A stretch of 36,907 nt of DNA from Sedimentisphaerales bacterium (GTDB lineage: Bacteria > Planctomycetota > Phycisphaerae > Sedimentisphaerales > SG8-4): contig JAFGCA010000393.1 of the NCBI GenBank assembly GCA_016932895.1, positions 1-36,907 of the forward strand, given 5' to 3'. The notes beneath the pieces were generated by a model. The model was not told where the DNA came from and did no database searches. It saw only the letters and a list, made by a program, of their open reading frames with translations. Below, in pieces: positions 20,160 through 32,305 of the stretch. The position numbers and the translations under genes are program-made. How positions within the stretch are numbered: the first letter of the stretch is position 1; every line of letters begins with the position of its first letter.

Positions 20160-23100
20160 ATGATGGAACGGCGTTTTTTCCGCACGGAGCGTTATCGGGC
20201 GCTCACTGTAGTCCTCCTTGCTATGGCCGTCGTAGGTATCGGGCCCCTATTTGCCTTCGACGGGAATTCTACGGTAGGGGAGGCCGACCATAAGGTCATT
20301 CCTCTGCAGCACATTTCGCCGGCGAAGGGCAAGGCACTTCTGACCCGGCTGAAGATCGGCACGGCCAATCCGCTGCCGGGAACCGACGCTTTGTTGGTTA
20401 CCGGCGCGCCCGGCGAGCTGATCAAGGCCCTGGCCGTCCTGAAGGTGGTGGACGCTCCGGGCGAGTTCGAGGTCAGGGAGCTTGGCGCCGCCTCGGCGGC
20501 GCGGATGCTGCCGTCCAACGAGCAGATTGCCGAGGCGGTGGGCAACCTGTCCATCGGCACGTTCGCCCATCCCCCGCAGATCGGCAGCAAGCCCAAAGCG
20601 CTGATCGACATCCACAACGGGGTCGTGGTGGCCATCGCTCCGATCTTCCAGCTTCAGGACATCAAGCTGGCCGTGGAGCTGGGGCCGGAGATCCTCAGGC
20701 AGCGCAACAAGACGGCCGCCGGGGCAAGCGCCGTGCCTGCTCAACGCACTGTATCTCCAGTGGCAGCGACCGAGACCGTACCGCCGCGTTCGTCTGCGGA
20801 AGCGGCCGGCGCCTCGAGCCGGATCACGGAGCCCGGCGCGGTGCAGCGCGAGTGGGTGGGAGCGCGTCCGCAGCCTGATATCTCCCCCGACGACATTGTA
20901 TTGATGCCTGATTTGCGTCCCGCTCTTGCGACGGCACTGCCTTTCCGACCGGCGAGTATGGACCTTTCTTTAGGCCAGTCCGACAGCAAGATCGTCGAGC
21001 CGAACGGGCCCCGGACGCTGACGACAACAGAGGCCACTCCGGGAGCCTTGCCCCGGGCAGGGAAACTCTCGCCGCCCGAGACCGCCAGGGAAATCACTCT
21101 GGCACCGGGACAGCGCGTCCCGCCCGAGGAGGACAAGGTTGTGGCGCCGCCGGTGGAGGCCGAAAGGATCGGGATCGAGCCCGAGGCGGCGACCCCTCTG
21201 GAGGCGAAACCCCAGCCGATGACCGAGGCAGCGGCCTATCAGCCCGCCCAGTTTGCCAACGGAGACGAGTATGTGGATTTGACCTTGCCGCCCACGGTGC
21301 CGGTCATCCAACTGCTCGATTTAGTGGGAAAGTACCTCAACCTCAGCTACGTATACGATCCGGCCAAGATTACCGGTGAGGTGACCTTGAAGCTCAACGG
21401 CGATCTCAGCGGCAAGATGAAGGTCGAAGAACTGTACCAGTTGCTCGAATCGGTGTTGCAGTTCAAGAATCTGGTCATGACGCGGCACAAGGGCAACATC
21501 GTCAAAATCGTACCGGTCACCGAGGTCTTGAGTCTGGACCCCGATCTGGTCACGTCCGATGACGCCAAGGTCGATGCCGGTGACATCGTGGTGACGCGCG
21601 TGTTCGAGCTGGAACATATCGATACAGGCAGCGCCGAGAACCTGCTCACCGGCATGGGGTTGACCGTCGGTGTGACCGCCATCGCCGAGAGCAACACCAT
21701 CATCGTCACTGCGTACGCCCATCGCATGGGACGGATCGAACGCTTGTTGAAGATGGTGGATAAGCCGGGCGATCCGCGGGAATTCAAGTTCAGGCAGTTG
21801 AAGTACACCATGGCCAAGACACTGGCGGAGAAGGTCCAGGCGCTGGCCGAACAGCTTGAAAGCGTTACGGTGACGGTGGCCGAACAGACGGCCACGACGA
21901 CGCCGACCACGAAGCTCCCGGGCGAGTCAGAGGCGGCCTACCGGACGCGTCTGGCCCGCCTCAAGGCCGCGCAGGCCGCCCGGGCGCGGGCGACCGCCTC
22001 CAGATCCAGGACGCAGCCGCAGGGAGAGGAGGCCAAGCCCGGCGTGTACCTGGATGCCGATGACCGGACCAATCGGATTCTCATGATCGGTGTCCAGGAA
22101 CAACTGGAAGTTGTGGACGGCCTGATCGACGCGCTGGACGTCGAGCAGCAGGATCTGCGCTCGTTGAAGCTCTATCGCATCCGGCATATGGATGCCGAGG
22201 AAGTGGCCAGGAAGCTCCAGGAATTGGGCATCATCAGCCGGGCCCCGGAGTCGGCGTACACGTCCACCAGGATTACCCAGACCACCGGAACTGCCGCTCA
22301 GAGGCAGGCTGCTGCGGCGCAGGCCGCCCGAACGCAGGTGGCGCCCAACGTCGCGACCGCCGCCGAGGTGACTGAGGAAGGATTGGTGGAAGAGCCGCAG
22401 GTTGTCGTGGTCGAATCGACGAATTCGCTCCTGGTAAACGCCACGACCGAGCAGCATAACCAGATCGAGACCATCATCGGCTACGTCGATACTGAAATCG
22501 ACGAGGATGAGATCCCCTACAAAATCTACCCCCTGGAAAACTCGTCTCCCTCTCACTTGTCCGAGATTCTGGAAAGCCTGATCCAGGAGACGGTCGAGGA
22601 CAAGGAAGGCAAGATCGAGAAGATCATCAAGAAGGAAGAAGAAATCACCATCGTTCCCGATCCGAATACGTATTCGCTGATCGTTTACGCCAGTAAGAAG
22701 AATCAGGACTGGATTGCCAACCTGGTCCAGCAGCTCGACAAACGGCGTCCGCAGGTGCTTATCGACGTGACGCTGGTGGAGATCACCGAGACGGACTCCT
22801 TCACGTACGATCTCAATCTTATCCAGAGCTTCCCGGATCTGGTGGCGACGTCGGGTTTGACGGGCGTGATTACGGAAGGCAAATCGAGCGCCGATATCAT
22901 CAGCCAGCTCAACTCGAGCGGTCGAAGTAATTTCGCCGATTTCCAGTCGGACAGCGGCAACTTCCGTGGCTTCTATGGCGACAAGCACATCAATGTCCTG
23001 CTCGACGCTGTTCAGACCAAGAACTACGGGCGCGTGCTGGCCAAGCCCAAGATCCTGGTCAACGACAACGAGCCGGGCTTGATCAAGACCACCGATACGA

Positions 23101-23681
23101 CCTACGTCAAGAAGACCTCGTCGATTCCGGTCAGCGGCGGCGGCGCCGGCACCGATACCACCCTCATCCAGACGGCGGAAGATTACACCCCGTATGAGGC
23201 CGGTATCACGCTGGAAATCACGCCGCACATCAGCGAGGGCGAGTTGCTTCGTCTGGACATCGGCTTGACGCGGTCCGATTTCCTCGAGACCACCGGAGAG
23301 CAGCCGCCCAATACGACCGCCAGCGAGGTGAACACGGCGGTTACGGTTCCCGACGGAAGCACCGTCATCCTGGGTGGCTTGCTGAAACTGAACCAGAACA
23401 AGGGCGGGGACAAGGTGCCGATTCTGGGCGACCTTCCCCTGATCGGCGGGCTCTTCCGGGGCATCAAGAACTCGGACCGGCAGAACAAGCTCTACGTCTT
23501 CGTGAAGGCCGAGATCATTCGTCCGGCCGGCCACGGTCAGGGTATGGCCGATCTCGAAGCCATCTCCGAGAGAAACCGGATGGCGTTTGAAAAGCATGAG
23601 CTGGAGTTCCAGAACTACGAGGACTGGCCCGGCATCAAACCCCGGCCGGTGGATCCCGTAAAAGTTCTCGAAGCCCAATAG
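20160..23681 (+). CDS. gspD: Type II secretion outer-membrane secretin GspD, oversized
   Basis: GspD forms the outer-membrane channel of the type II secretion system. It is 1173 residues against the usual 650-750. After a signal or anchor segment (about 10-32) comes an extra N-terminal region: a small secretin-N1-like module (HKVIPLQHISPAKGKALLTRL to VLKVVDAP) and a Pro/Glu-rich linker to about residue 365. A recognisable N0 domain follows (VDLTLPPTVPVIQLLDLVGK, about 373-465). N1-N3 repeats come next, interrupted by Ala/Thr/Arg-rich inserts near 580-625 and 700-745. The secretin core (about 860-1120) ends with VLAKPKILVNDNEPG, TAVTVPDGSTVILGGLL and VPILGDLPLIGGLFRG. Tandem ATGs are at 20160 and 20163. 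gspE follows after 30 bases. The opposite-strand open frame of about 800 codons across gspD/gspE is a shadow. Confidence 0.93.
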   Translation: MMERRFFRTERYRALTVVLLAMAVVGIGPLFAFDGNSTVGEADHKVIPLQHISPAKGKALLTRLKIGTANPLPGTDALLVTGAPGELIKALAVLKVVDAPGEFEVRELGAASAARMLPSNEQIAEAVGNLSIGTFAHPPQIGSKPKALIDIHNGVVVAIAPIFQLQDIKLAVELGPEILRQRNKTAAGASAVPAQRTVSPVAATETVPPRSSAEAAGASSRITEPGAVQREWVGARPQPDISPDDIVLMPDLRPALATALPFRPASMDLSLGQSDSKIVEPNGPRTLTTTEATPGALPRAGKLSPPETAREITLAPGQRVPPEEDKVVAPPVEAERIGIEPEAATPLEAKPQPMTEAAAYQPAQFANGDEYVDLTLPPTVPVIQLLDLVGKYLNLSYVYDPAKITGEVTLKLNGDLSGKMKVEELYQLLESVLQFKNLVMTRHKGNIVKIVPVTEVLSLDPDLVTSDDAKVDAGDIVVTRVFELEHIDTGSAENLLTGMGLTVGVTAIAESNTIIVTAYAHRMGRIERLLKMVDKPGDPREFKFRQLKYTMAKTLAEKVQALAEQLESVTVTVAEQTATTTPTTKLPGESEAAYRTRLARLKAAQAARARATASRSRTQPQGEEAKPGVYLDADDRTNRILMIGVQEQLEVVDGLIDALDVEQQDLRSLKLYRIRHMDAEEVARKLQELGIISRAPESAYTSTRITQTTGTAAQRQAAAAQAARTQVAPNVATAAEVTEEGLVEEPQVVVVESTNSLLVNATTEQHNQIETIIGYVDTEIDEDEIPYKIYPLENSSPSHLSEILESLIQETVEDKEGKIEKIIKKEEEITIVPDPNTYSLIVYASKKNQDWIANLVQQLDKRRPQVLIDVTLVEITETDSFTYDLNLIQSFPDLVATSGLTGVITEGKSSADIISQLNSSGRSNFADFQSDSGNFRGFYGDKHINVLLDAVQTKNYGRVLAKPKILVNDNEPGLIKTTDTTYVKKTSSIPVSGGGAGTDTTLIQTAEDYTPYEAGITLEITPHISEGELLRLDIGLTRSDFLETTGEQPPNTTASEVNTAVTVPDGSTVILGGLLKLNQNKGGDKVPILGDLPLIGGLFRGIKNSDRQNKLYVFVKAEIIRPAGHGQGMADLEAISERNRMAFEKHELEFQNYEDWPGIKPRPVDPVKVLEAQ

Positions 23682-23711: not shown

Positions 23712-25418
23712 ATGAAAGAATTGCTGGTACAAACCGCAGAGAGAACGGGTCTGGTCGACGCCGAGCGTCTGGCTCAGTTCATTGAAGAGAACAAGGGTCG
23801 GGGACGCCTGGACGAAGTCCTGCTTACCTGTCCGTATTTCACGGAAGACGTGGTGTTGAAACTCTTCGCCGAGGCGCTCGGGTGGGAGTATCTGCCGGAC
23901 GTGTCGGAGAAGCTGGTTCCGCAGGAGTTTGTGGAGGCGGTGCCGGCCCCCTACGCTCAGCATCACTACCTGATCGGTATTCGGCCGGAGGGGGACAACG
24001 GCGAGCTCACTGTGGTGCTGTCTCGTCCGCTGGATGCCAACGTTCTGGACAACGTCTCCAAGATGACGCGGTTGGCCGTCAAGCCCGCCGTCGCCACGCG
24101 GGCGGCGATTACCGCCGTTATCGATATGGCCTACGAGCAGCGCAACACCGTGATTGAGGAAGTGGCCGAGGAGTTGGATTCCCAGAACCTCGATCAGTTG
24201 GTCGATGAAGTGGCCGCTTCCGACGACCTGCTCGACGTCGTGAACCGGCCCCCGGTCATCCGGCTGGTGAATGACGTTCTGTTTCGCGCCTTGCAGCTTC
24301 GGGCCAGCGACATTCACGTCCATCCCTACGAGACGAAGATTCAGATCCGCTATCGCATCGACGGGATTCTCTACGATGTGTTGACGCTGAACCGCAATGT
24401 CCTGCCTCTGATTACCTCGCGTATCAAGGTGATGGCGGGCATGGATATTGCCGAACGCCGGCTACCGCAGGACGGGCGCTCCAGCGTTCGCCTCGGGCAG
24501 CGGGAGGTGGATCTGCGTGTCAGCACGGTGCCGACCAGTTTTGGCGAGCGCAGCGTGCTGCGTATCCTGGACAAGAGCACGGGCGTGTTCGCTTTGGAAG
24601 AGTTGGGCCTCTGGGAAGACGACCTGAAGAAGCTCGATGCGTTGTTGCACCGGGCCCACGGCGTGATCTTTGTCACCGGGCCGACCGGCAGCGGCAAGAG
24701 CACCAGCCTCTACGCCTATTTGAATCGAATCAACTCCGCCGAGAAGAACGTTCTGACGATCGAAGATCCCATTGAGTATCAGCTCGAGGGGATCAGTCAG
24801 ATTCAGGTGGCCAGCAAGAAGGGCATGACCTTTGCCACCTCGCTGCGGCACGTTCTGCGCCAGGACCCCGACGTCATCATGGTCGGCGAAGTGCGCGACG
24901 TGGAAACCGCCCGGATGGCGATTCAGTCGTCGCTGACCGGCCACCTGGTCTTCAGCACGCTGCACACGAACGATTCGGCCGGAGCGGTGAGCCGGCTGCT
25001 GGACCTGGGCGTCGAGCCCTACCTCGTCAGTTCTTCGTTGATCGCCATTATCGCCCAGCGCTTAGTGCGCCGGGTTTGTCCGAATTGCAGGAAACCGGCC
25101 GAGCCGCAAGCCCACGAGCTCACGGCCCTGGGGCTGGACTCTTCGAAGGAAGCCCGCGATGCGACCTTCTACGTGGGAGAAGGTTGCGAGAGGTGCTTCC
25201 AGACGGGCTATCGCGGCCGGACCGGTATCTATGAAGTGATGCTGATCAGCGACGAGATTCAAGAGCTTATTTACAAACAGGAAACCGCCGGCGCGATCAA
25301 GAAAATGGCCCGGGCGGCCGGGATGCAGACCCTGCGCATGGACGGGGCCCGTAAAGTCCTGACCGGTGTCACCACGGCCGCGGAGGTCTTGCGCGTGACC
25401 CAGGCCGACGTCCGATAA
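23712..25418 (+). CDS. gspE: Type II secretion assembly ATPase GspE
   Basis: GspE is the cytoplasmic ATPase that powers pseudopilus assembly. The N-terminal domain (about 1-150) is a GspE_N/MshEN-type module (ERTGLVDAERLAQFIEEN, LFAEALGWEYLPDV). Residues about 175-560 form the ATPase: RASDIHVHPYETKIQIRYRIDG, Walker A GPTGSGKS (about 323-330), Asp box LTIEDPIEYQLEG, Walker B VIMVGEVRD and the His box STLHTNDSAGAVSRLLDLG. A CPNC (about 456-459) and CERC (about 493-496) pair forms the zinc-binding C-terminal motif. The length of 568 is normal. It lies between gspD and gspF in the standard order. It could be confused with PilB, but the surrounding GspC-M cluster settles the assignment. Confidence 0.95.
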   Translation: MKELLVQTAERTGLVDAERLAQFIEENKGRGRLDEVLLTCPYFTEDVVLKLFAEALGWEYLPDVSEKLVPQEFVEAVPAPYAQHHYLIGIRPEGDNGELTVVLSRPLDANVLDNVSKMTRLAVKPAVATRAAITAVIDMAYEQRNTVIEEVAEELDSQNLDQLVDEVAASDDLLDVVNRPPVIRLVNDVLFRALQLRASDIHVHPYETKIQIRYRIDGILYDVLTLNRNVLPLITSRIKVMAGMDIAERRLPQDGRSSVRLGQREVDLRVSTVPTSFGERSVLRILDKSTGVFALEELGLWEDDLKKLDALLHRAHGVIFVTGPTGSGKSTSLYAYLNRINSAEKNVLTIEDPIEYQLEGISQIQVASKKGMTFATSLRHVLRQDPDVIMVGEVRDVETARMAIQSSLTGHLVFSTLHTNDSAGAVSRLLDLGVEPYLVSSSLIAIIAQRLVRRVCPNCRKPAEPQAHELTALGLDSSKEARDATFYVGEGCERCFQTGYRGRTGIYEVMLISDEIQELIYKQETAGAIKKMARAAGMQTLRMDGARKVLTGVTTAAEVLRVTQADVR

Positions 25419-25494: not shown

Positions 25495-26709
25495 ATGCCA
25501 AGATACGAATACACGGCGATAGCCAGCACCGGCAAGAAGGTGAAAGGGGCCATCACGGCCGAGAGCCCCTACGCGGCGCGCAAGCAGTTGCGGATGCGCA
25601 GCGTCCATCCGGCCTCGCTGACCGAGGTCTCCGCCACCGATGAACGGGGGGGCTTCTCCCTCCGCCTGCGCAAGGCAGGAAAAAGCCAGATTATCGATTT
25701 CACGAAGCAGTTGGCGACGCTGCTGAACTCGGGGATCAAACTCACCGAGTCGCTTTCGGTCCTGATGCTGCAGACGTCGGACCATCGGTTCAAGGCGGCC
25801 CTGGCCGAGATTCGCGACCGCGTCGTAACGGGCGAGTCGTTCACCGACGCGCTGAAGGAGTACGGAGACTATTTCGACGTCGTGTACGTCGCCATGGTTC
25901 GGGTCGGTGAGGTTACCGGTTCGCTGGGCCAGACCCTCCAAACCGTCGCCGGCTTCATGGAGAAGCGTCAGCGCGTCGAATCCAAGGTCATGACGGCGAT
26001 GATCTACCCGCTCGTCCTGGTGGCCTTTTGTCTCGTCGCCATCTTGATCCTGACGACGAAAGTGATTCCGACGATCGGCGCCCAAATCGAGAGGGCGGGA
26101 CAGGAACTGCCCTGGATTACGCAGCAGTTGATGACGTTCAGCCATATCCTGACGAGCTGGTGGCTGGCGGTCCTGATCGCGGCCATCCTGCTCATCGTGG
26201 GCCTGTTCCGGCAGTTCTTCCGGACCGATCGCGGGGCGTATTTGCGCGACCGCTTCATCCTCTCGTTGCCCGTGTTCGGATCGCTCATCCGGCAGCGCGT
26301 GGTGGCGCGTTTCGCCTCGACGCTGTCGACCTTGATCGGCTCGGGACTGGCGATGGCCGAGTCGTTGCGTGTCGTGGCCGAGACGACGGGGAACATGCTG
26401 ATGAAACGGGCGGTCCAGCAGGCGCGCGAGCGCATTCTGGCGGGCGCCGATATCGCCACGCCTCTGCGTGACAGCGGTGTGATCGATCCGGCCATTGCCC
26501 ATATGGTGGCCGTGGGAGAGAAAAGCGGTGAACTCGAGGTCATGCTCAAGAGCATCAGTGAGAATCTCGAATCCTCCACCGACGTTGTCATCGAGCGTCT
26601 TAGTGCGGCGGTTGAGCCGGTTATTATCATTTTCATGGCAGCGGTCGTGGGCGTGATCGCCTATGCGACCATTCTGCCGATCCTGCGCATCTCGGTCGTG
26701 GGATTCTAA
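25495..26709 (+). CDS. gspF: Type II secretion inner-membrane platform protein GspF
   Basis: GspF is the polytopic inner-membrane core on which GspE acts. The 404 residues show the family start MPRYEYTAIASTGKKVKGAI, two GspF helical domains (about 65-190: IDFTKQLATLLNSGIKLTESL; about 270-390: VARFASTLSTLIGSGLAMAESL) and three hydrophobic segments, near 172-192 (PLVLVAFCLVAILIL), 223-240 (LAVLIAAILLIVGLF) and at the C-terminus (PVIIIFMAAVVGVIAYATILP). The length is standard. It starts 76 bases after gspE without a clear ribosome site. gspG follows after 23 bases. Confidence 0.95.
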   Translation: MPRYEYTAIASTGKKVKGAITAESPYAARKQLRMRSVHPASLTEVSATDERGGFSLRLRKAGKSQIIDFTKQLATLLNSGIKLTESLSVLMLQTSDHRFKAALAEIRDRVVTGESFTDALKEYGDYFDVVYVAMVRVGEVTGSLGQTLQTVAGFMEKRQRVESKVMTAMIYPLVLVAFCLVAILILTTKVIPTIGAQIERAGQELPWITQQLMTFSHILTSWWLAVLIAAILLIVGLFRQFFRTDRGAYLRDRFILSLPVFGSLIRQRVVARFASTLSTLIGSGLAMAESLRVVAETTGNMLMKRAVQQARERILAGADIATPLRDSGVIDPAIAHMVAVGEKSGELEVMLKSISENLESSTDVVIERLSAAVEPVIIIFMAAVVGVIAYATILPILRISVVGF

Positions 26710-26732: not shown

Positions 26733-27173
26733 ATGAAGGAGCACAAGAAGCGACTCGGAAGAAGCGGTTTCACCATGGTTGAGCTGATGGCGGTCCTGAT
26801 CATTCTGGGCCTGCTGGCAGGCGTCGTGGTCAAGAATTTCGTCGGCCAGGTCGACAAAGGCAAGATGACTACGACCAAAGCCAACCTCCGACTTCTGCAC
26901 AGCGCCGTAAATCAATTCTACATGGACCAGGGCAGATATCCGAGTGAAGACGAAGGCTTGTATGCCCTGATCGACGCGCCGGCGGAGGTGGAGAACTGGC
27001 CTCCGGGTGGTTACCTGGAAACGACCGACATTCCGACGGACGGCTGGGGTCGGGACTTCATTTACGAGCTGTATCCCGAGAGCGGCAAGCCGTTCGTGAT
27101 CAAGAGCCTCGGCGCCGACGGTCAGGAGGAAGGCGAGGGCTACGATGCGGACCTGCTCAGCACCGACCGCTAA
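26733..27173 (+). CDS. gspG: Type II secretion major pseudopilin GspG
   Basis: GspG is the main subunit of the periplasmic pseudopilus. The 146-residue precursor has a short basic leader (MKEHKKRLGRSG) ending at the prepilin peptidase site Gly|Phe-Thr-Met-Val-Glu, with the conserved Glu at +5, followed by the hydrophobic helix. The globular part shows the GspG pattern MTTTKANLRLLHSAVNQFYMDQGRYPSEDEGLYALI and DGWGRDFIYELYPESGKPFVIKSLGADGQEEGEG, the last being the calcium-binding loop region. The C-terminal end overlaps gspH by 29 bases. No prepilin peptidase gene lies in the window, so processing must use one encoded elsewhere. Confidence 0.94.
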   Translation: MKEHKKRLGRSGFTMVELMAVLIILGLLAGVVVKNFVGQVDKGKMTTTKANLRLLHSAVNQFYMDQGRYPSEDEGLYALIDAPAEVENWPPGGYLETTDIPTDGWGRDFIYELYPESGKPFVIKSLGADGQEEGEGYDADLLSTDR

Positions 27174-27747
27174 GGCCGCTCGTTCCCGGCGTGACGGCGC
27201 CGCTTCCACACGCACGCGCCGACACGGCTTCACGCTCGTCGAGATGATCGTTGTTATCTCGATCCTCGCGCTGTTGGTCATGGTGGCTCAGGTGAATCTT
27301 TTTGGCGTGTTGCGCCGGAGCCAATTCCAGGCAGACGTGCAGGAATTCGTTTCCGCCATGCAAATGGCGGCAGCGGCAGCGGCCGAGAAGGGACGCCGGT
27401 ACGAAGTGATTGTCGACATCACCGAGCAGGCCTTCCTGCTGCGGGAGATCAGCTCGTCGAACCTGTCCGAGATCCTCGACGAAGAGATCATCATGCAGGG
27501 GTATTTCGGCGAGAACTGCAAGGTCGTGTACGTCGAGTTTGATGACGGCGCCTATACGAACGAGAGCGCCGCGAAATTTCGAGCCGGCCACGCCGGCTGG
27601 CACTATGGGGGCAAGATCGTGTTCCTCGACGACAGCGAGCAGGCCCACAGCGTGCTCGTCAGCCGGCTCTCGCCGATGGTGAGACTGGTGCAGGGCGATC
27701 CGGTTCTCATGACGCCCAAAGGCAAAGATGAGGTCCCGTTTCTTTAG
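27145..27747 (+). CDS. gspH: Type II secretion minor pseudopilin GspH-like
   Basis: This 200-residue pseudopilin has an unusually long, arginine-rich leader of about 28 residues before the cleavage site in RRHGFTLVEM, then the hydrophobic helix IVVISILALLVMVAQVNLF. GspH is inferred from order (after GspG) and from FQADVQEFVSAMQMAAAAAAEKGRRYEVIVD, the typical 'early helix then strand' pattern of GspH/FimT. The start at 27145 lies inside the end of gspG, with GAGGG 6 bases upstream. The 29-base overlap implies translational coupling. The start codon of gspI follows 30 bases after the stop. Confidence 0.82.
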   Translation: MRTCSAPTAKAARSRRDGAASTRTRRHGFTLVEMIVVISILALLVMVAQVNLFGVLRRSQFQADVQEFVSAMQMAAAAAAEKGRRYEVIVDITEQAFLLREISSSNLSEILDEEIIMQGYFGENCKVVYVEFDDGAYTNESAAKFRAGHAGWHYGGKIVFLDDSEQAHSVLVSRLSPMVRLVQGDPVLMTPKGKDEVPFL

Positions 27748-27777
27748 CGCGTCCATACGTTTGGATTGCAGGCGACG

Positions 27778-28617
27778 ATGCAAGACAGAAGGACATACAA
27801 TTCGGGCATGGGGCACCGGCCGGCTCGGCCGTTCGGGCGCGACGGCTTCACCTTGCTGGAGGTGTTGACGGCCCTGGCGATTCTCGCGTTCGTCAGCTCC
27901 AGCGTGCTCGTTGTCATCGATCGCTGCGTCGTTGCCGCCGCGGACTCGACGCTCCGCATGGAAGCCTTTACGCTCGCCCGCGAGAACATGGAGAAAATCC
28001 TCGTCTCGAACTCGGTCAGTGAAACCGTCGAATACGGGGTAAGTGACACGAATCCCAATATCTCGTGGCAGACCGTGATTGAGGCGTTTTCCGAGCCGGT
28101 GGACGGTACCATGTGGGTGCGTGCGGTTTGTTCGGCGGAATTCCCGGACACCACCGGCGAGACGCAGACAGTCAAGCTCGAGCATTGGCTCACGGAACTG
28201 ACCGAGCAGCAGGCCGGCCAGCTCGCGGGGCAGGAGGATATCGAGCAGCTTGCGGTCGAGCAGTTGATCGAGACGCCGGCAGAGGCCGCCGAGTACGCCG
28301 GCGTCAGTGCCGAGACGATCGAGGAGTGGGTCGAAAACGGGCTGCTGACCACCGAAGATGGTCTTTTCATCAAGTACAATCTGGATATCTACAAGCGAAC
28401 CCAGGGCAACCCCTCCGAGCAGGACAAGGCCGACCAGGTCGAATCCATCGAGGATCTGGCCCTGTCGTTGCGATCTGGGCAGGAAGGGGAAACGGGCCGC
28501 TCCGACGCCGAGCAGGGCGCCGACGGCATCGACCCGCTCACGGGTCTGCCCTACGAAGAATTAGAGAAGAAGGACGTGCGAGAGGTCATGGAGTTGTTGC
28601 AGAAGCGACAGAAGTGA
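27778..28617 (+). CDS. gspI: Type II secretion minor pseudopilin GspI-like with C-terminal helix-turn-helix
   Basis: The N-terminus is a pseudopilin: a basic leader, cleavage site RDGFTLLEVL with Glu at +5, and the helix LTALAILAFVSSSVLVVIDRCV. The ARENMEKIL stretch after it is typical of GspI (A-x-x-x-x-E). GspI is usually about 120-140 residues; this one is 279. After the pilin domain (to about 140), residues about 164-207 read as a MerR/excisionase-type winged helix-turn-helix: an Ala-rich helix with AAEYAGVSAETIEEWVENG, then a short strand pair ending in IKYNLDIYKR. The tail is acidic and helical. The start could be TTG at 27766 or ATG at 27778. The ATG is chosen because AGGCG precedes it. 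gspJ follows after 39 bases. The GspI assignment rests on order and the N-terminus. Confidence 0.8.
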   Translation: MQDRRTYNSGMGHRPARPFGRDGFTLLEVLTALAILAFVSSSVLVVIDRCVVAAADSTLRMEAFTLARENMEKILVSNSVSETVEYGVSDTNPNISWQTVIEAFSEPVDGTMWVRAVCSAEFPDTTGETQTVKLEHWLTELTEQQAGQLAGQEDIEQLAVEQLIETPAEAAEYAGVSAETIEEWVENGLLTTEDGLFIKYNLDIYKRTQGNPSEQDKADQVESIEDLALSLRSGQEGETGRSDAEQGADGIDPLTGLPYEELEKKDVREVMELLQKRQK

Positions 28618-28656: not shown

Positions 28657-29496
28657 ATGAAACAGCCAACGGCCCGGACAAATCGTTTTGCGGGATTCTC
28701 CCTGGGGGAGATGCTCGCGGCCCTGGTGATCGGCGCGATGGTTCTCACCGCCATCCTGGGTGTTTATGCCCGGGCCAACCGCGCCGCCGACGCGGTCCTG
28801 GCGAAGGTCGAGAGCCCGTCGCTGGCGACCGAAGTCCTCCATCTCCTGGCCGAAGATCTCGACCGCCTGTTAGGTGCAGAGGAGGGCGAGACCAGTATCA
28901 AGATCGAGCCCGGTTTCGACAACGGTTTCGCCCGCTCCCGGTTGACGCTGCGCCGGACGTACCGCGACGCGAAGAACGAGGAGAAGGCGTTTGAAGAAAT
29001 CACGTGGCTGGCCGGATACGATCACGAAGGCTCCGTGCCGGGACTGATGATCTATCGCGGCCATGAAGGGATGAACCTGGAGGACAAGCTTCTCGACGCC
29101 AAGCGGGAAGGCTGGGAAGACAATTATCCCCTGATCCCGATCTGTCGCGGCGTGACGTTCTTTCGGATCGAGGTGCCCAAGGACAAAGAGGACGAATTCG
29201 TCGATCGCTGGGCGGCCTCTTCGTTGCCGCCGGGCGTGAGGGTCACGATCTCGTTTGCCGAGCCCTACGAGACCGTCCGCGGCACGTGGGATGTGCTCGA
29301 CCAGGAGAAGGTCAGTCGAACCATCGCCATCGACCGGACGCGCGCGATCAAGTTCACCGCCGCCAAAATGACCCTGCCGGGTCCGGGCGGTGAGGAAGAC
29401 GAGAAAGACGAAGCCGCTGATGAGGATGAGAAAGCGGCTCAGCCAACAGAACAAAAAGCTGATGAGAAACCGACCCCATCGACAAGGCGAAAGTAG
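28657..29496 (+). CDS. gspJ: Type II secretion minor pseudopilin GspJ-like
   Basis: The 279-residue precursor has a leader ending at AGFSLGEML (cleavage after Gly, Glu at +5 kept although the usual T-L is S-L-G) and the hydrophobic helix ALVIGAMVLTAILGVYA. The following SLATEVLHLLAEDLDRLLG and the long beta domain suit GspJ. The last 45 residues or so are low-complexity, alternating Glu/Asp and Lys (GGEEDEKDEAADEDEKAAQ and on) and should be disordered. The end of the gene overlaps the start of gspK. No clear ribosome site precedes the ATG at 28657, so translation may be coupled to gspI. Confidence 0.8.
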   Translation: MKQPTARTNRFAGFSLGEMLAALVIGAMVLTAILGVYARANRAADAVLAKVESPSLATEVLHLLAEDLDRLLGAEEGETSIKIEPGFDNGFARSRLTLRRTYRDAKNEEKAFEEITWLAGYDHEGSVPGLMIYRGHEGMNLEDKLLDAKREGWEDNYPLIPICRGVTFFRIEVPKDKEDEFVDRWAASSLPPGVRVTISFAEPYETVRGTWDVLDQEKVSRTIAIDRTRAIKFTAAKMTLPGPGGEEDEKDEAADEDEKAAQPTEQKADEKPTPSTRRK

Positions 29497-30766
29497 CGAC
29501 CCGTTTCGTCCGGGCGTGGTCCTGCTGATCACCCTGGTGATTCTGGTCATCCTGGCGACGCTGGGCTATACGCTCAGCGCCCGGGTGGCCGCGCGCCGGC
29601 ACCGGGATCAATACATGATCGACTACGGGCAGGCGCAATACGCCTGTGCCTCGGCGCTGAAATACGCGTTGGCTTCGGCGGGCAATATCGAAGCCGAGCC
29701 GATCAGCCGCCCCAACGATCCGGATTTTTCCGACGTGTTTGCCATGAGCGAGCTGGAATACCAGGAGCTTCTGATCGAGTACGGTTTGAGCACCGAGGCA
29801 GGCGAGGAAAACCTTGACGCCGGCCGGGACGATCCGGACTGGGAAGACACCAGCGATTCCAACGAGTTTGGTTTCGATCGCACGCTTGCATCCGATGCGG
29901 AACTGCCGACCATACGAGGCCCCTACGGGCCCCCATGGCCGTTGGTCAGCAGTCCGCTCGAATTTGAAATCGGCTCGGCCCGCGTGAAGATCGAGATCGA
30001 GGACGAGAACGCCAAGTACCCGCTGGGCTGGGCGCTGATCGAGGACGAGAAGCTACAGCCCCTGGCCGATGTGGGCTTCGTGACGTTTTGCGAATGGATG
30101 GCCTATGGGGACAAGGAGATCCGGTCGTTGCGGGAGGATCTGGCCCGGATTGGTGAGATCAGGACGTTCAAGACGGAATTCAAACCGGTGACCGAGACGG
30201 TCAAGCCGACGCAGAGCAGTCTGCGGAGCCGGGCCTCGGGCGCGAGCTCACGCAATACCCCCGTCCGGCGTTCGGCGACCCAGAAGAAGACCATTTCCGC
30301 CGCCGACCAGATTGCCCAGCAGAGCACCGCGTTGGCGAAGCTCTTTCACAGCTCGTTCATCGATGCGGAGCTGTTGTCCCGGCCCAGTGTGGTCGCCGAG
30401 AGCCGCCAGGAGTCCGCCATAAAGTATCTGGGACTGTGGGCAGCCCGGAAGGTCAACGTCAATTCGGCGCCGCGTCACGTGCTGGAGGCCGCCCTGACCT
30501 TCGGCAGTGTCGCCGACGCGCCCAAAATGGCCGAGGCGATCATACAGCAACGGCGCGAGAAGCCCTTCACCGACATTGAAGAGTTGAAAACCAACGTGTT
30601 CGAATATTCGGACTCCATCGACAAGTGCAAGGACTTTCTCACCACCGTGAGCACGGATTTTGTCATCCGGGCCACCGCCACGAGCGGCGTGGCGACGGTC
30701 ACCGCCGTGGCCGCCGTCAGCAAAGAGGGGGACAAAGTAAAGGAGATCGGTGTAATTTCCGACTAA
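29462..30766 (+). CDS. gspK: Type II secretion tip pseudopilin GspK
   Basis: GspK caps the pseudopilus tip. After a basic, Asn/Arg-rich leader, the prepilin-like site RPGVVLLITLVILVILATLGYTLS lacks the +5 glutamate, which is normal for GspK. The 434-residue length and the helical SAM-like region near the end (VNVNSAPRHVLEAALTFG, QQRREKPFTDIEELK), which contains helix-hairpin-helix-like motifs, match the family. The start is uncertain. The frame is open from a GTG at 29390, and ATGs lie at 29420, 29426 and 29462; the last gives a leader of normal length. It overlaps gspJ by 35 bases from this start. The gene is followed by tandem hairpins before gspL. Confidence 0.85.
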   Translation: MRNRPHRQGESSDPFRPGVVLLITLVILVILATLGYTLSARVAARRHRDQYMIDYGQAQYACASALKYALASAGNIEAEPISRPNDPDFSDVFAMSELEYQELLIEYGLSTEAGEENLDAGRDDPDWEDTSDSNEFGFDRTLASDAELPTIRGPYGPPWPLVSSPLEFEIGSARVKIEIEDENAKYPLGWALIEDEKLQPLADVGFVTFCEWMAYGDKEIRSLREDLARIGEIRTFKTEFKPVTETVKPTQSSLRSRASGASSRNTPVRRSATQKKTISAADQIAQQSTALAKLFHSSFIDAELLSRPSVVAESRQESAIKYLGLWAARKVNVNSAPRHVLEAALTFGSVADAPKMAEAIIQQRREKPFTDIEELKTNVFEYSDSIDKCKDFLTTVSTDFVIRATATSGVATVTAVAAVSKEGDKVKEIGVISD

Positions 30767-30838: not shown

Positions 30839-32305
30839 GTGGAATCTCGAAACTACTTGGGGATCTACTGGGCCCGTGACCGGGCCACGGTGGTCGCTCT
30901 GGCGGCGCAGGGACGGGACCGCAAGCTGCTGGATGCGTTTTCCGTTTCGGTCGCGGACGAGCAGGAGCCGGGCCCTTCGGCTCTGGCCGAGCGCATTGGG
31001 CGGGCCTGTTCCGAGCGGAACGTGAAGTCCGCAGCGGCCGGAGTGGCCCTGGACTGCGAAATGTTCATGCAGCATAGCGTCCGCAGCGCGTTCCTGGACG
31101 AAAAAAAGATCGCCGCCACCGTTCGTTTTGACACGGAAGAAGCTCTGGCCACGGATATCAGCGAAGTGGCCGTGGCGTTTCGGGTCACTGCGAGCGATGA
31201 GGAAGGCGCCACTCTCGACGTGTACACCGCCCAGCGAAACGACTTGTCGGAGCTGCTGTTTTCTTTGCAGGGCCACGGCATCGATCCGGTGACGGTGGAT
31301 CCCGACGTGTATTGCCTGTCTCGGTATCTGCGGACCTACGGCGGCGGCGAATCGTCGGAAAGGCGGGTGCTGTACGCGTTTCTTTCCGATTCGCGCGGTT
31401 ATCTCGTCTCACCGGCGGAATCGTCGCAGCGCTCGCTGATGCGTGCATTTCCGGTGGGTCCGGCTCAGCAGCGGGACCAGTTGCTCTCGCGGGAGATCCT
31501 CGTTACGGCCGGTTTGGCCGAGAGCGTCGGCAAAGTGGAGCGGCTCTGTGCTTTCGATGCCAGGAATGAAGTCAACGTGGCAGAGCTTGGCACGCGAACC
31601 GGGCTGCGAGCCGAGAGGTGCAATCTCGCCGGGATGGCAGGTCTGGTGCCGGCGGATTGGGGCGATTGTTCGGGACCGGTGGATGTGGCGCTGGCCTACG
31701 GCGCCGCCCTGGCGGTTCCGCAGGAGAAAAGCGTCAACTTTCGCACCGATCATATGCCTTACCAGGGCACGAAAGCCCGCAAACGCCGGGCCCTGAAGTT
31801 CTTGAGCTTCGCCGTGACTCTGCTTCTCCTGGCCGTGGGCGTGTACTTTCACACCCAACTGCTCGAAATCAAACGGGACCAGGAGGCCTTACGAAGCAAG
31901 TTCGAGCCGGATTACCTGGCCGTGATGCCCGGGGAGGAAATGCTCCCGGAGAAGATGAAGACCGCAGTCAATAATTTGGACAGGGCTCTGCGGCGGCTTC
32001 GCGCCGAGACCACGGGCGTCGGCGCCGAGAACTCCATCTCCGCCAAGCTGGTGCGGGTCCTGCAGGCGGTCAATAGTTGTGCGGCAAAGACCGATCTCAA
32101 TATCGATTCGGTGACCATTACCGAACGGAGCATCCTGGTCAACGCCGATACCTCCAGCCGGCGTAACACGCTCAGCGTCTTCGACGCCATGAAGAAAGCA
32201 GGCCTGGAGGTCCAGGACCACCGGCTCAGCACCGAGGGCGGGCGAGACAATTTCTCTGCGACCATGGAGCCGAAGAAACAGGTAGCAAAGAAGGAGCAAC
32301 CATGA
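30839..32305 (+). CDS. gspL: GspL-like type II secretion platform protein
   Basis: GspL bridges the ATPase GspE and the inner-membrane platform. The 488 residues comprise a cytoplasmic actin-like (PilM/GspL-type) region (YLGIYWARDRATVVAL at the start; AGLAESVGKVERLCAFDARNEV; ALAYGAALAV near 290), a single membrane span at about 320-340 (LKFLSFAVTLLLLAVGVYF), a coiled coil (LLEIKRDQEALRSKF), and a periplasmic ferredoxin-like PilN/GspL_C domain (KTDLNIDSVTITERSILVNAD). The start is GTG with GGAG 10 bases upstream. The stop overlaps the next ATG as ATGA. GspL identity is inferred from architecture and order; primary-sequence similarity is weak. Confidence 0.72.
   Translation: MESRNYLGIYWARDRATVVALAAQGRDRKLLDAFSVSVADEQEPGPSALAERIGRACSERNVKSAAAGVALDCEMFMQHSVRSAFLDEKKIAATVRFDTEEALATDISEVAVAFRVTASDEEGATLDVYTAQRNDLSELLFSLQGHGIDPVTVDPDVYCLSRYLRTYGGGESSERRVLYAFLSDSRGYLVSPAESSQRSLMRAFPVGPAQQRDQLLSREILVTAGLAESVGKVERLCAFDARNEVNVAELGTRTGLRAERCNLAGMAGLVPADWGDCSGPVDVALAYGAALAVPQEKSVNFRTDHMPYQGTKARKRRALKFLSFAVTLLLLAVGVYFHTQLLEIKRDQEALRSKFEPDYLAVMPGEEMLPEKMKTAVNNLDRALRRLRAETTGVGAENSISAKLVRVLQAVNSCAAKTDLNIDSVTITERSILVNADTSSRRNTLSVFDAMKKAGLEVQDHRLSTEGGRDNFSATMEPKKQVAKKEQP

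Follow-up and report, generated by a model that had tools for sequence, protein, structure and literature searches.

The window analysed here, a 36,907-nucleotide stretch of DNA from a Sedimentisphaerales bacterium (contig JAFGCA010000393.1), carries a type II secretion (gsp) gene cluster in which the pseudopilin gene in the gspI slot encodes an additional helix-turn-helix (HTH) module. We lean towards reading the product as a modular minor pseudopilin, in which a repurposed, charge-altered phage-type HTH on a GspI-type core would act as a protein-binding adaptor at the pseudopilus tip. The layout of the gene is given below; coordinates here and throughout are positions in the whole window.

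27778..28617, + strand: minor pseudopilin in the GspI position, carrying the HTH insert (ATG 27778 is the likely start; the frame is open from 27766)
27778..27846, + strand: leader to the prepilin-peptidase G (PF07963 and TIGR02532 matches; G27/F28 cleavage inferred from the motif)
27847..28005, + strand: pilin long helix alpha1, residues 28-80 (helix 30-80 in the AF2 model)
28006..28197, + strand: pilin beta-sheet, residues 81-144, GspI-like
28198..28260, + strand: linker helices, residues 145-165
28261..28413, + strand: HTH module, residues 166-216 (profiles and predicted structure)
28414..28524, + strand: short helices and variable acidic linker, residues 217-253
28525..28614, + strand: C-terminal helical tail, residues 254-283

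Read from the ATG at 27778, the probable start and the Met used by relatives such as P0003, the protein is 279 aa long. Since GspI is usually roughly half this size, the doubled length reported in a preliminary description of this DNA holds. The HTH-like residues 164-207 that it placed at 28267-28398 are indeed found there, as codons 168-211 of the open reading frame (ORF) 27766-28617 or residues 164-207 from the ATG. The N-terminus is that of a normal pseudopilin, as had been proposed: a prepilin signal with the G/F-T-L-L-E motif is recognised by PF07963 (E 1.2e-5, 25.1 bits, cut-off 21.2) and by TIGR02532 (25.3 bits, cut-off 16.3), and cleavage presumably occurs at G27/F28. The core of the protein models best on the GspI proteins XcpV and EpsI. 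The NCBIfam gspI model TIGR01707 gave 24.4 bits, below its cut-off of 44.35, and we therefore call the protein GspI-like and GspI-position. It has the prepilin motif, gene position and pilin core fold in common with XcpV and EpsI, and differs from them in its roughly twofold length and in carrying the HTH module and tail.

Several profiles recognised the module in the window protein, each below its cut-off: the excisionase model TIGR01764 (E 1.6e-4, 22.0 bits, cut-off 28.8), HTH_17 at residues 170-194 (E 3.9e-4, 21.1 bits, cut-off 27) and MerR (E 0.014, 15.6 bits, cut-off 28.2). The HTH_17 match anticipated in the preliminary description was thus recovered in place, but at a score short of the family threshold. 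Among 23 diverse module segments, 20 matched HTH_17 and all 23 matched the 'MerR-like' phrog_2474 at E<=1. When residues 166-216 were modelled in isolation, the segment folded as an HTH of the MerR/excisionase/terminase superfamily (mean pLDDT 87.6), with a predicted helix-turn-helix, wing and following helix. A search of 5.8 billion proteins returned 1031 relatives, and the best-listed 120 were aligned with the query; these are the nearest relatives, a sample skewed to module-bearers, and two of the entries, P0001 and P0002, correspond to the window protein itself. A174, W188, G192, N205 and D207 were invariant in all 121 aligned rows, and PF12728 (HTH_17) was a precomputed annotation in 5 of the 120. 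A search of solved structures with the segment's sequence profile gave nine matches at E<=1, the best being RppC (E 0.26), and two were FAM96A, which is functionally unrelated. The embedded excisionase/MerR-like HTH of the preliminary description is therefore upheld by the profile matches, the invariant residues and the isolated fold.

The absolute structural scores are low and the HTH_17 score of the window protein is under its cut-off, which would fit another small helical domain, of protein-interaction type, that merely resembles an HTH without homology. We give this only a small chance: the sequence match extends beyond the HTH to the wing and next helix (hhalign against phage terminase small subunits, E 4.6e-11 over 72 columns in a pairwise comparison), and both the precomputed HTH_17 annotations and the MerR-like matches of every diverse segment argue against it. 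The probability of an assembly chimera or a wrong gene call, for which nothing speaks beyond the oddity of the architecture, is close to nil. The frame is unbroken, as stated earlier for this gene, and the architecture recurs in the listed homologues and in 22 other operon loci, so that independent genomes contradict an artefact.

In the same alignment, conservation reached 3.14 bits per column in the HTH, compared to 3.34-3.50 in the pilin core and 1.74 in the second linker. These values bear on the idea of the module as a mere spacer or ornament, which would have come by fusion and would persist without specific binding because the site between core and tail is permissive. Its repeated loss within one clade and the low-complexity segments that replace it in relatives are in keeping with such a role. 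We nevertheless consider a spacer rather improbable, since the module is conserved nearly like the pilin core while the second linker is not, and since W188, N205 and D207 are invariant, though some of them may matter for the fold alone.

To be read as a DNA-binding HTH, the module would need a basic DNA-contacting surface. This surface is missing, and we therefore did not file the module as such. Its mean net charge was -6.4, compared to +3.6 for 30 HTH_17 matches from the same genomes, and the basic recognition-helix positions of its terminase relatives (RxxRRxxK) are mostly acidic or neutral. Because the net charge is negative and most recognition-helix basics are lost, DNA binding by the module appears unlikely, judged from the sequences. 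Contact with DNA in the periplasm or extracellularly, whether for DNA capture, biofilm or extracellular DNA contact, accordingly has a slim chance in our assessment. The fold and sequence kinship to DNA-binding HTH proteins speaks for it, as do two terminase basic positions, 203 and 221, retained in 18 and 19 of the 23 module segments. The operon, in contrast, is of the protein-secretion type, and the available part of PMC12153270 describes already known DNA-receptor pilins as using electropositive patches. Of the two functions offered in the preliminary description, we thus favour a repurposed protein-binding fold; the inverted charge of the module and of its recognition-helix positions speaks against contact with extracellular DNA.

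A parallel to such a protein-binding role may be CbpM. This cytoplasmic protein differs from the module in standing alone and in being dimeric through a coiled coil. It is alike in having a MerR-type fold without DNA-binding residues, and an interface of acidic residues holds its basic partner, as described in the available part of PMC4063869.

A search of 28 genomes with the module profile recovered 22 pseudopilins and one other protein, a 196-aa ORF in genome G153 (E 1.9e-11). The neighbours of this ORF encode a Clp-type protease and the large subunit of a terminase (PF05876 5.7e-59, PF20454), and from this setting we take its product to be the small terminase subunit of a prophage.

L238:4552-7625: genes for prophage packaging, namely an HTH protein (the putative terminase small subunit), a large subunit of GpA type and a Clp-type protease

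Against the module profile, the G153 ORF and ten relatives scored 23.5-51.3 bits, and small HTH proteins of Streptomyces type reached up to 35.0 bits; of 30 HTH_17 proteins taken from the same genomes, only 3 were reported, the highest at 14.8 bits. By hhalign the Streptomyces-type proteins (E 4.8e-12, 41 columns) are about as near to the module as the terminase set. The two sets are equally near, and both were gathered by searches with the module or from its match, which biases the comparison, so that either may represent the donor. A phage-type HTH is a likely donor and a terminase a plausible one, as far as sequence comparison indicates. A tblastn search of phage records with the window segment gave no match better than E 0.9, the hits being mostly HTH/excisionase genes, with tail spikes and a helicase also present. 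The terminase small subunits (Nu1, RppC and the G153 prophage protein) and the excisionase/MerR domains share the HTH, wing, following helix and sequence similarity with the module. The module differs from them in being acidic, in having lost most recognition-helix basics and in sitting on a periplasm-facing pilin.

The module's distribution was examined across operon loci and genomes. It was present in 23 of 60 gathered loci, the window included, and absent from 37. Of the 298 genomes from the class to which G002 belongs, 55 had a strong GspI-family match (E below 1e-30, at most 8 candidates scored per genome; 56 places), and 19 of these 55 carried the module. In an IQ-TREE tree of GspE and GspF (56 loci, 970 columns, root placed at L213/L214 by choice), all 22 module-bearing leaves fell inside one 28-leaf Phycisphaerae clade (ultrafast bootstrap 95), together with six module-less leaves (L182, L183, L184, L185, L186 and L189), and none of the 28 leaves outside carried it. 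The segment is thus present in Phycisphaerae relatives, as had been asked of it, but within one clade on the tree and not in all of its members. Parsimony required five changes, for which one gain with four later losses is the simplest account, and listed node support within the clade was 71-100. This points to a single gain followed by several losses, although independent gains may have occurred. In the six module-less clade genomes the module was found nowhere else except in the G153 terminase small subunit (1/6), and no stand-alone copy was seen among the 50 matches of a further database search. By eye, the tail of module-less L182 (GYTREEL) resembles that of module-bearing L002 (GYTMEEL), and other module-less tails differ. 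The likeness between some module-less and module-bearing relatives suggests that the module is an insert between pilin core and tail.

In module-less Phycisphaerae GspI proteins the pilin core is followed by low-complexity stretches, TPR-like repeats or a helical repeat. The TPR-like repeats stand at the module's place in L007:13090-14295, L117:1935-2981 and L122:1939-2955, with all TPR matches under cut-offs. A 'GLDxxAYE...' helical repeat was seen by eye after the core in L110, L111, L115, L116, L120, L121, L123, L124, L126, L127, L129 and L133, and the three or four of these compared with Pfam gave only weak matches. Cysteine-rich GspI tails ending in CQLTGCCCN or CQLTGCCCD occur in L206, L208, L209 and L211.

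Modular pilins, defined as a pilin module joined to a domain not specific to type 4 filaments, have been described in 264 architectures, and the part of PMC8179133 available classes GspI and GspJ as non-modular. The window protein falls within this definition. Like PilB and PilC of Streptococcus sanguinis and CofB (same source, in part), it bears a C-terminally grafted non-pilin domain; it is set apart by its host, a GspI-type pseudopilin from a type II secretion cluster, and by its module, an HTH of putative function. Our literature search, which covered subscription papers thinly, set aside the architecture table of PMC8179133 and was partly judged from listings, revealed no pseudopilin described as carrying an HTH module.

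In the adaptor model that we prefer, a GspI-type pilin core (model, position and motif) carries an inserted HTH module (profiles, model and conservation) that one Phycisphaerae clade probably gained once and then lost several times. The module would descend from a phage-type DNA-binding HTH, the nearest found being terminase small subunits and small excisionase-like proteins, and its DNA-contact charges have mostly given way to acidic and neutral residues. Pilin topology puts a C-terminal module on the periplasmic side. By comparison with known GspI, it would lie beside GspJ/GspK at the pseudopilus tip and there, by analogy with CbpM, most probably bind an exoprotein, the secretin or the assembly platform. 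A more tentative proposal, which we regard as possible, is that the GspI C-terminus is an exchangeable slot for lineage-specific tip modules in Phycisphaerae. One clade would have captured a phage packaging-type HTH of the terminase small subunit kind and inverted its charge, as a receptor presenting particular exoproteins or docking the tip at the secretin.

The recognition of folded substrates by type II systems has long been an unsolved problem. A lineage-specific tip module with apparently one gain and repeated losses offers a natural comparison of secretomes between module-bearing and module-less sister genomes, and at ~50 residues it is small enough to excise, mutate and use as bait. Moreover, the module appears to be a DNA-binding fold adapted to a task outside the cytoplasm, and its phage relatives still show the ancestral pattern of charges.

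The cluster in the window has the gene order gspD-E-F-G-H-[I]-J-K-L, with the pseudopilin ORF in the gspI slot and the following neighbours.

20160..23681, + strand: gspD secretin (PF00263 1.3e-36)
23712..25418, + strand: gspE ATPase (TIGR02533 637.6 bits, cut-off 630.25)
25495..26709, + strand: gspF (PF00482 2.3e-50)
26733..27173, + strand: gspG major pseudopilin (TIGR01710 123 bits, cut-off 88.85)
27145..27747, + strand: gspH-position pseudopilin (PF07963 5e-8; gspH model under cut-off; mainly position)
28657..29496, + strand: gspJ-position pseudopilin (mainly position; N_methyl 17.4 bits, under cut-off)
29390..30766, + strand: gspK-like (NF037980 4.2e-10, under cut-off)
30839..32305, + strand: gspL-like (TIGR01709 2.4e-11, under cut-off)

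GspK proteins of the module clade, including that of the window (29390-30766), often contain a very basic Arg/Lys/Ser/Thr-rich stretch of up to +16 in 40 residues. We considered whether such a basic loop of GspK might bind the acidic module and rejected the idea, as GspK basicity is not tied to module presence: the highest net charge over 40 residues, which is a crude measure and at times fell on the N-terminus, had a median of +9 in 23 module-bearing loci, +14 in five module-less loci of the clade and +8.5 in 28 loci outside it. The window GspD is 1173 aa long and has four Secretin_N stretches. Its N0 match begins only at residue 384 (under cut-off), and the first ~380 residues (20160-21308) comprise a signal-like start and Pro/Ala-rich stretches. 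Genome G117 has two near-alike gsp regions (L108/L203 and L111/L192), one at a contig end, which may reflect an assembly duplicate or mixed strains. Among the database entries, P0122-P0140 look by eye like GspI pieces arising from internal Met start codons or contig ends, and P0141-P0143 like similar but shorter pieces; P0144 looks like part of a GspI that passes into other sequence with the annotation PF05598. One entry of P0122-P0140 bears the name 'helix-turn-helix domain-containing protein, partial', which is misleading as an annotation.
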